A stretch of 16,536 bases of DNA from Candidatus Eiseniibacteriota bacterium (GTDB taxonomy: Bacteria; Arandabacterota; Arandabacteria; JAGLYR01), in NCBI GenBank assembly GCA_023132135.1, contig JAGLYR010000077.1:1-16536 (forward strand), read 5' to 3'. Positions 6,132 to 8,739 of the stretch are shown in pieces. The notes beneath the pieces are model-generated. The model was given only the letters and a program-made list of their open reading frames with translations. It was not told where the DNA came from and ran no database searches. Within the stretch, counting starts at the first letter, position 1, and each line of letters starts with the position of its first letter. The translations under genes and the position numbers were made by a program.

Positions 6132-7040
6132 ATGCTGACCGAACACCTCGGATACCTCGCTGGTCTTGCCACAGCCGTCTGCTGGACCGTCAGCGCCGTC
6201 TTTTTCACCCGCGCTGCCGGCCGTATCGGGGGAGTGACCGTCAACCACGCCCGGGTAGTTCTCTCCCTCCCCATGATGGCGCTCATACACCTGGCAACCC
6301 AGGGATCGCTTTCCCCTGTGCATGTTGAACCCTACCGCTGGGGATGGCTGGCCCTCTCCGGTGTTGTCGGACTGGCGTTGGGAGACTCCTGTCTCTTCAT
6401 TGCCTTCGCCCTCATCGGCCCGCGCCTGTCGCTACTGGTCATGTCTCTCGTTCCAGTGATCAGTACGACGGCTGCCTGGATCTTCCTTAGGGAAACGCTT
6501 GCACCGGTGGAGATCGCGGGGGTTCTCATCGCGGTCATCGGAATCGGATGGGTCGTCATGGAGCGGGGCGGCAATGATGACCCGGCGGATTCCCCGACTC
6601 CGCGGTATGGACTGGGTATCCTCTTGGCTTTCGGCGGCGCTCTCGGTCAGGCTCTGGGACTTGTCGTGGCAAAAAAGGGAATGGCGGGGGACTTTCCGGC
6701 AATCTCGGCTACCCTGATCCGCATGCTGGCCGCGGCCGCGACGATGTGGGGCGTCGCGGCCCTTCGTGGTCAGGCTCCCGCGGTCGCCCGGCGGATCTGT
6801 GACCGCAAGACTCTCGCACATCTCCTGAGCGCGGTCGCCATCGGGAGCGCACTGGGGATCTGGCTCTCACTCGTGTCCATCCAGTACGCCCGCCTCGGTA
6901 TCGCCACCACTCTCATGGCCCTTCCCCCCGTCCTCATCCTGCCCCTGGCCTACTGGCAGCTGCGCGAGCGCATTACGACAAGAGCGGTACTCGGCACCAT
7001 CGTGACCTTCGCGGGCATTGCGCTTTTGCTGATGAAATGA
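6132..7040 (+). CDS. EamA/DMT-superfamily transporter
   Basis: A 302-residue inner-membrane protein of the drug/metabolite transporter superfamily. Length and pattern fit the usual ten-helix form made of two EamA repeats (about 5-140 and 150-300). Helix ends such as TLAPVEIAGVLIAVIGIGWVVM and the C-terminal RAVLGTIVTFAGIALLLM correspond to the fifth helix of each repeat. The family exports amino acids, nucleotides or other metabolites; substrate cannot be read from sequence. It is the only plus-strand gene here, divergent from the fused membrane protein and convergent with the M16 operon. The ribosome site before the ATG is weak, but no better in-frame start exists without losing the first helix. 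Confidence 0.88.
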   Translation: MLTEHLGYLAGLATAVCWTVSAVFFTRAAGRIGGVTVNHARVVLSLPMMALIHLATQGSLSPVHVEPYRWGWLALSGVVGLALGDSCLFIAFALIGPRLSLLVMSLVPVISTTAAWIFLRETLAPVEIAGVLIAVIGIGWVVMERGGNDDPADSPTPRYGLGILLAFGGALGQALGLVVAKKGMAGDFPAISATLIRMLAAAATMWGVAALRGQAPAVARRICDRKTLAHLLSAVAIGSALGIWLSLVSIQYARLGIATTLMALPPVLILPLAYWQLRERITTRAVLGTIVTFAGIALLLMK

Positions 7041-7076
7041 CCGCACTGTGCAGAGCCCGCACTGGGGTGAGTATTG

Positions 7077-7257
7077 TAGCCTGGGTTATTCAGGAATCCC
7101 GTAGCGAGAGGGACGCAGGCTGTGACTGGCAAGGCGCGGGGTCGATTTCGACCGCAGGCGGGGCCGTAGCCCCGCTGAGGATCGAAATCGGTGCCGCAAC
7201 GCAGTCCAGACACATCCTGAGACCCTCGCAGCAGGGATTCATGAATAACCCAGGCTA
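7077..7257. mobile_element. 181-bp palindromic MITE-like element with 16-bp terminal inverted repeats
   Basis: TAGCCTGGGTTATTCA at 7077-7092 is repeated exactly, inverted, at 7242-7257. The arms continue to pair inward with interruptions: GAATCCC near the ends, GCGAG, TGTG/CTGG-type blocks, then CGATTTCGA (7143-7151) with TCGAAATCG (7182-7190) and GCGGGGC (7158-7164) with GCCCCGC (7169-7175) around a CGTA loop. The whole element can fold into one long imperfect hairpin. Each end carries TA, which could be a duplicated TA target, as for IS630/Tc1/mariner-type transposition. It has no open reading frame, so it would depend on an enzyme supplied elsewhere. Lying between convergent genes, it could also stop transcription from both sides. 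No second copy is visible in the window. Confidence 0.75.
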
Positions 7258-8739
7258 TCTCTCCAGGCTCAGCGGATCCGAAAGAGGCAGCTCCGTAATC
7301 CTGCCGAAGTCCGATACCTTCGCCGGGCTTTTCTCCGTGGTCCCGTTCCTGACGTCGTCGGCGTTCCCCACCACGAGGAAAACCATACGATCGGGGTGCA
7401 AGTACTTCCGCGCGGCTTCCTGGACTTCTTCGACCGTCACTGCCTGAACACTAGTCTCGTAGTTCTTCCAGTAATCCTTCGGCCGACGGGTAAGGAAATC
7501 GTTTGCCAGGGTCCGCACCGTGTTCCATTTGTCCACGAAATTGTTGACCAGCATGCTCCGGGTGTTTTGCTTGGCGTTCTCGAGGGTTTCCTGGTCCACC
7601 GGCTCCTCGCGAATTCGGTCGATCTCCTCCAGAATGATCGACGTGCCAAAGGCGACGGTCGAAGGTTTGGTCTGGAAGTAGGCGCGGAAGTCGCCATCGT
7701 ACCATACCGGTGTCGAAAAACGGCTGCCCTGACTGTAGGAGAGACCCTCGTCCGAACGAACCCGCTGGACAATCCGGGAGGCGAACCCCCCTCCGCCGAG
7801 AACGTAGTTCATCAACTTCACGGCAAAGTAATCCGGGGTGTCCCGGCGGATCCCGAGATGCCCGATCCGCACGCGGGCCTGATTCACATCTTCCTTGTTC
7901 ACGATGTAGACACCGGGAACCGGCGTGTGCATGACCTCCGGGATCTCAGGCAAATCGAGTTCCCGGCTCGACCAGCCCGAGAACACCCGGTCCAGCTTCC
8001 GGACCAGATCCCGGGAGTCGAAATCGCCGGCCGCCGCAATGATAAAGTTCCCCGGGAAGAAGTACTTCTCATGAAACGCGCGCAGATCATCGACGCTGAT
8101 GCTCTCCATAGACGCCTGCGTCTCGCGGAACTGCTTTGTGTAGGGGTGATCTCCATAGATCAGGAAAGCCCACTCACGGGCTTCGATTTTCCTCAGCTCG
8201 TTGTTCCTGAGCTTGAGTTCCTGGATCCGGTCCTCCCGCCGCCGTTCCACCTCTGTGGGGTCGAAGGCAGGGTACCGCAGGATCTCCAGCAGGATATCCA
8301 GGGCCTCGTCCATGTCCTTGCTCAAGGTCGAGATGGTTACCGTGGCCGAGGTCATTCTCATTGCACAGGAGATCGATCCGGCAAGGTACTCCACCCGGTC
8401 GTCCAGCTCCTCGGGGGTGAAGGACCGGGTTCCCCCATTTCTCATCAGGTAGGCCATCATGTCGGCAAGGCCGGCCTTGTCCGCGGGTTCGTAGGCGATC
8501 CCTGTTCTCACGTAGACTCGCAGATCGAATGTGGGGACTTCCCGGTCCTCGGCGATGAAGGCCGGAATACCCGAACCCAGCGTCACCTCGTACGATCCCG
8601 CGTCCGGTGGCGTGTACTCGAGATCCGGGAACTTGAGCTTGTCCGGGTGCTTCACCTTCCCGGCCAGACCGGCCTCGGGCAGAAGCAAACCGACCGATAC
8701 AACCATTACCAGAAGCAGTACAATCGCCGACTTCGTCAT
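7255..8739 (-). CDS. Secreted M16-family peptidase homologue, catalytically dead subunit
   Basis: A 494-residue M16 (pitrilysin / processing-peptidase) family protein with an N-terminal signal peptide (hydrophobic 5-20, likely cut after about residue 26). The segment that should hold the zinc motif HxxEH reads GLADMMAYLM (90-100), with Asp, Ala and Tyr in place of His, Glu and His, so it cannot bind zinc in the usual way. It retains the glycine-rich loop LGGGGFASRI (314-323) and DEGLSYS, typical of the non-catalytic partner that helps hold substrate in two-subunit M16 enzymes. It starts 12 nt after the active partner, with GAGGGAAG upstream of the ATG, so a heterodimer in the periplasm or outside the cell is likely. 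Its TAG stop lies in the end of the palindromic element. Confidence 0.9.
   Translation of the reverse strand: MTKSAIVLLLVMVVSVGLLLPEAGLAGKVKHPDKLKFPDLEYTPPDAGSYEVTLGSGIPAFIAEDREVPTFDLRVYVRTGIAYEPADKAGLADMMAYLMRNGGTRSFTPEELDDRVEYLAGSISCAMRMTSATVTISTLSKDMDEALDILLEILRYPAFDPTEVERRREDRIQELKLRNNELRKIEAREWAFLIYGDHPYTKQFRETQASMESISVDDLRAFHEKYFFPGNFIIAAAGDFDSRDLVRKLDRVFSGWSSRELDLPEIPEVMHTPVPGVYIVNKEDVNQARVRIGHLGIRRDTPDYFAVKLMNYVLGGGGFASRIVQRVRSDEGLSYSQGSRFSTPVWYDGDFRAYFQTKPSTVAFGTSIILEEIDRIREEPVDQETLENAKQNTRSMLVNNFVDKWNTVRTLANDFLTRRPKDYWKNYETSVQAVTVEEVQEAARKYLHPDRMVFLVVGNADDVRNGTTEKSPAKVSDFGRITELPLSDPLSLER

Follow-up and report, generated by a model that had tools for sequence, protein, structure and literature searches.

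RUP of Streptococcus pneumoniae is a MITE of 107 bp, present in about 100 copies at TA targets, that is tied to IS630-Spn1 by its terminal repeats (PMC2229807). The enterobacterial ERIC/IRU and YPAL/RU-2 sequences are gene-free intergenic palindromes of 127 and about 168 bp, respectively, to which no IS is assigned in the same review; the termini of YPAL lack a TA motif and its repeats are internal (PMC2229807). Stable stem-loops are common in the vicinity of stop codons (PMC1590033). Members of the IS1380 family, including IS1380A and elements from Pseudomonas and Bradyrhizobium, have CTAGCCCGCATTTCTCAC as their terminal repeats and are bordered by CTAG at either end. In the literature, of which part was covered, no description of IS1380-associated MITEs of the kind reported here was found.

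The element studied here, a member of what is called family 1 below, resembles RUP as a MITE assigned to an IS by its ends but differs from it in that the assignment of RUP is to IS630-Spn1, with TA targets and a length of 107 bp. It resembles ERIC/IRU and YPAL/RU-2 as a gene-free palindromic repeat, although YPAL differs by its TA-less termini. Homology with ERIC, considered on account of AAGGCG- and AACGCAG-like words, was rejected as local alignment scores for all seven representatives were within the range of shuffled sequences. GTAG-tagged REP sequences are also high-copy palindromes and share a superficial, one-sided GTAG foot with the element, which, unlike them, has two equivalent ends, a YTAR duplication, a length of 181 and no conserved tag. 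Compared with IS1380 elements of about 1.7 kb, the 181-bp element lacks a transposase gene, its interior is unrelated and the family-1 ends have diverged, whereas the IS1380 end itself recurs in a sister group, family 2.

The window, i.e., the whole stretch of 16,536 nucleotides that was analysed, contained only one long palindrome of this kind, a family-1 copy of 181 bp (7077-7257, including the TAG/CTA borders) that was delimited from sequence, inverted-repeat, copy and folding analyses. Repeat and end-motif searches placed the left terminal inverted repeat, TAGCCTGGGTTATTCA, at 7077-7092 (plus strand) and its exact inverted copy at 7242-7257 (minus strand), 149 bases away; these terminal arms lengthen to 24 nt at 96% complementarity (one mismatch), and an inner pair (7136-7164 with 7169-7197) leaves CGTA as a 4-nt loop (7165-7168). 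The 16-bp ends, their spacing and the loop were therefore as described in an earlier note on this DNA. Folded as DNA, the whole 181 nt formed one near-complete hairpin of -67.6 kcal/mol, compared with -29.9 +/- 3.4 kcal/mol for shuffled versions (z = -11; 0 of 200 as good), and an Rfam search of the window matched no known RNA family. Alignment of copies from the same genome and from Verrucomicrobia identified conserved boxes on the plus strand, two in the 5' arm (CGTNGCGAG at 7100-7108, defined by invariant columns, and CAAGGCG at 7130-7136) and two in the 3' arm (AACGCAG at 7198-7204 and TCGCAGYAG at 7226-7234).

Two convergent genes flank the element. An EamA transporter gene identified by profile search (6132-7040, plus strand) ends 36 bp before it, and the native 3' end of an M16 peptidase gene (7255-8739, minus strand; Pfam PF05193/PF00675) lies at its right edge, where positions 7255-7257 read on the minus strand are the TAG stop of the peptidase. 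Because the predicted C-terminus (...LPLSDPLSLER) is comparable to that of homologues from the same class (...LPLRNPMTLEVE), the element supplies a stop codon at the native end of this protein. The earlier description of the element as having no ORF accordingly holds as far as a gene of its own is concerned but overlooked that its right-hand CTA/TAG belongs to the peptidase ORF.

Searches of the genome of origin, a 3.4-Mb assembly of 345 contigs, many of which end within element copies, returned 65 matches to the full element and 218 copies of the family-1 end motif at no more than 2 mismatches, while a reversed-pattern control returned 0. Copies lay at many loci, as opposed to a single locus at which a fixed terminator might have been conserved. 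Complete copies formed a size series of 180-182 bp, 50-68 bp and 21 nt, the last being a minimal unit, TAGCCTGGGTTATTCAGGCTA, that occurred 28 times. Both the 21-mer and a 65-mer would be the expected products of deletions between direct CAGG repeats located at the foot of the hairpin. The window element, multicopy, small and without a transposase gene, thus belongs to a population of hundreds of probable passenger transposons (MITEs) that this genome carries.

Family-1 left ends in this genome adjoin other repeat modules rather than unique sequence, and the genome therefore contains an entire collection of such modules between genes. Seven left flanks (L005, L018-L020, L028, L036 and L062) were a mosaic of such repeats, for example CGAGACGGCAACGCTGCCGTTG, GCGCTCTCCATSAATCAC, GTGACAGGCGACTGGGATTGGGGAATAC and AGTCCCTAGTCCGTAGTCC. 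Hairpins of the forms GTAGGGGCGACC...GGTCGCCC (flanks L017 and L035) and GGAGGGACGGC...GCCGTCC (flanks L020 and L057) also recurred beside elements and are probably true GTAG/GGAG-tagged REPs.

Similar elements were found in genomes of Verrucomicrobia, Planctomycetota, Armatimonadetes and Proteobacteria. A degenerate 20-mer end was present in 14 of 386 genomes, up to 89 times in one genome, and its reversed control in none; counts of exact family-1-like ends were 94 in a proteobacterium (G102), 72 in a planctomycete (G103), 57 in the genome of origin, 26 in a member of the Verrucomicrobia (G098) and 21 in a member of the Granulosicoccaceae (G106). Of the 70 exact matches to the 16-mer in named genomes outside the casp40 Verrucomicrobium, most are due to chance and lack the remainder of the element. 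The suggestion that the hairpin forms a distinct family in this lineage was thus too narrow, since the family crosses phyla. For comparison of empty sites, the 97 other genomes included relatives at class level only and no close relative.

The connection with IS1380 was most direct for family 2. One intact IS1380-family transposase was found in the genome of origin (contig C139; PF13701, E 1e-155), and the right end of this resident element is TGGTGAGAAATGCGGGCTA. The family-2 end, TAGCCYGCRTTTCTCACCA, is exactly the resident IS1380 end and was present in 216 copies at no more than 2 mismatches (control 0). Among the matches listed, eight inward-facing pairs of TGGTGAGAAATGCGGGCTA enclose exactly 181 or 182 bp, and these family-2 sequences are again hairpins with a centre similar to that of family 1. 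The resident element thus gives family 2 an IS1380 partner with the same type of end in its own genome, whereas no autonomous IS1380 with the exact family-1 end was found in this assembly, which breaks at repeats. Immediately upstream of the resident IS1380, which seems to have lost its left end, there is an IS3-type transposase (L066:262-1437 on C139). Elsewhere (L058:734-770 on C118), two family-2-type ends face outward with one CTAG in common (TGGTGAGAAATGTAGACTAGCCTGCATTTCTCACCA), an arrangement like a transposon end junction.

IS1380 loci from Pseudomonas (L291 and L294), Bradyrhizobium (L293) and Planctomycetota (L218) were compared with the element ends, which follow the pattern TAGCC[CT]GGRTTATTCATGA. 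Annotated elements ended in CTAGCCCGCATTTCTCACAG in Pseudomonas and CTAGCCCGCATTTTTCACAG in Bradyrhizobium, in each case with CTAG on both sides, and the same Pseudomonas transposase was seen at two separate sites, both bordered by CTAG. The planctomycete element, with a transposase 51% identical to that of IS1380A, had CTAGCCCGGATCCCTCAC ends and again CTAG on both sides. Direct comparison of the window end with the IS1380 end gave a match at only 11 of 17 positions; the link runs via intermediates, in a series from the IS1380 type to family 1 that reads CTAGCCCGCATTTCTCACCA, CTAGCCCGGATTTCTCACCA, CTAGCCCGCATTATTCATGA, CTAGCCCGGATTATTCATGA and CTAGCCTGGGTTATTCATGA. In addition, 78-bp elements of Armatimonadetes have one end of each type. 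Beyond the ends, no similarity was found between the interiors of IS1380 and the MITEs, and a simple internal-deletion derivative of IS1380 was ruled out on that ground. A search for PF13701 was negative for several carriers of the family, including G098, G099, G101 and G106, the assemblies of which are fragmented.

The best reading, at a probability of roughly 0.78, is that the 181-base palindrome is a non-autonomous MITE of IS1380 type that entered where the M16 peptidase gene ends. For family 2 the sequences lead all the way to IS1380; for family 1 this link would run by way of the intermediate ends. An IS1380-family DDE transposase acting in trans would recognise the terminal CC[CT]G[CG][AG]TT..TCA repeats, and the element would be inserted into a YTAR target, preferably CTAG, with duplication of 4 bp. 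Transposition itself, and the reliance of family 1 on IS1380, are what we infer from comparison of sequences. In support of the view that the hairpin is non-autonomous, transposase-dependent and MITE-like, copies were numerous and gene-free with transposon-like ends, and related IS1380 ends occurred in the same and other genomes, although the alternative class that had been proposed with it, REP, did not survive (see below).

Borders of the copies bear on the nature of the transposase. TA is present at both borders of the window element and of nearly all copies, as would be expected if a transposase of IS630/Tc1-mariner type had moved the MITE with duplication of TA, and two copies (L199, CTAG/CTAA, and L156, TTAG/CTAA) fit duplication of TA only. 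However, two other copies, whose borders do not both read TAG, were nevertheless flanked by identical 4-bp sequences (L216, CTAA/CTAA, and L113, TTAG/TTAG), and the duplication is therefore best read as 4-bp YTAR, usually CTAG, with CC...GG as the element proper, a reading not proven for each copy given the TA-only cases and the left ends in the genome of origin that adjoin other repeats. Complete copies in the planctomycete G103 had c|TAG at the left edge in 19 of 19 cases and CTA|g at the right edge in 18 of 19, so that the element targets CTAG and not any TA, and its ends match IS1380 and not a known IS630. Movement by an IS630-type enzyme thus appears improbable, and the TA duplication proposed earlier, while correct as to the bases at both borders, was too short, clean copies showing 4-bp YTAR that includes the TA. 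For the window copy, by analogy with the clean copies, the element proper would be 7080-7254 (CCTGG...CCAGG). The left and right target-copy positions, GTAG (7076-7079) and CTAT (7255-7258), are mismatched in their outer bases, and an intact 4-bp duplication is absent at this site.

Somewhat less probable still is that a Y1 (IS200/IS605-like) transposase moves the hairpin in the form of single-stranded DNA, as in GTAG-tagged REP/RAYT systems. Left ends in the genome of origin often read GTTG|TAG, i.e., they carry a GTAG foot, the repeated 21-nt unit could be taken for a REP, and the genome yielded a single Y1/RAYT-like transposase frame, truncated to 89 aa, on contig C145 (G000; L138:1384-1653). 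No link between that frame and the element was seen, and the 21-mer can derive from the long form by deletion between the two CAGG repeats. The foot is limited to one side of copies in this genome, right ends and other genomes reading CTAG, and the element has two equivalent inverted-repeat ends with 4-bp duplications in clean copies; Y1 transposition is not known to make such duplications. REP/RAYT was rejected on the unconserved tag and these duplications.

Association of the element with stop codons was seen in the reading frames that run into it. In the genome of origin, 30 right-type ends adjoined a long open frame; this frame ended exactly at the element TAG in 23, as opposed to 1 and 6 for the other two frames (p = 1.5e-6), and in G103 it did so in 31 of 46. 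At background CTAG sites, frames were split 20:16:12, so that CTAG itself favours stop codons and the excess over this background was modest (Fisher p = 0.03). Where the TAG of a target CTAG is the stop of a gene, its duplication leaves that gene with a stop codon after insertion, and such insertions would be nearly harmless and hence persist. On a viral contig, a 189-bp copy lies within a coding frame, and the flanks, when joined, read on across CTAG. That the host retains the hairpin as a bidirectional terminator or stabiliser of mRNA 3' ends, rather than its spreading as a transposon, would fit the overlap with stop codons, the convergent genes in the window and compensatory base changes, but is very improbable given that no T-run adjoins the hairpin, that no terminator was called at the element, that copies lie at many unrelated loci, one of them interrupting the viral frame, and that the preference of CTAG for stop codons explains part of the overlap. 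Such a role may be a secondary use of the element.

The centre of the hairpin was conserved. Between families the arms share little sequence, although within an element the two arms are complementary, and element lengths cluster at 180-182 with the loop at position 90-92. The conserved core, defined in the window at 7143-7190 (plus strand) by a covariance model and covariation, consists of an 8-bp stem with a 4-nt loop (CGTA in the window), an internal loop (GNA in the 5' strand, GA in the 3' strand), two base pairs and a 1-nt bulge. Unpaired G12, A14, G35 and A36 were invariant in nine sequences while stem bases varied with compensation; the covariation score was 0.50 compared with 0.22 in shuffles and 0.05-0.28 when the core was slid. 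The GNA/GA pattern could be a tandem G.A arrangement. In an alignment of 13 sequences from the genome of origin and Verrucomicrobia, double changes were seen in 7 of 35 pairs.

A covariance model (R1) built on copies from the genome of origin and G103 gave 59.9 bits (E 7e-15) for the window core, which is a training sequence. In held-out genomes, R1 matched G073 (E 2e-10), a class relative (G006, E 2e-10) and, weakly, G105 (E 0.002), and it also detected a 200-bp copy in G103; over roughly 30 unrelated loci no match was better than E = 0.1. Verrucomicrobial cores are related but have a different internal loop and gave no match to R1. The core in G073 (L139:1461-1639) is within a 179-nt hairpin with unrelated GGTTGGGGGGGGG ends, which begins directly at the TAG of a 479-codon frame. 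Tentatively, and with less confidence than an even chance would warrant, the core might itself be a functional module of nucleic acid (ssDNA or RNA) with a fixed geometry (about 180 nt, loop at 90-92, GNA/GA) that passed from phylum to phylum and exchanged its terminal repeats for ones suited to different transposases, as with the ends of family 1, family 2 and G073, and that spread harmlessly via insertion at stop codons.

Many bacterial palindromic repeats lack an assigned carrier; here a large set that crosses phyla can be linked by its ends and target to one IS family. If the target CTAG overlaps a stop codon, the duplication rebuilds the stop, which would be a simple reason for the occurrence of repeats at gene ends. 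Terminal repeats by themselves would not call for a conserved core, and its presence is a testable hint of an activity of the folded element, which may be to help transposition, to avoid cleavage of the palindrome or to act in the 3' part of mRNA.
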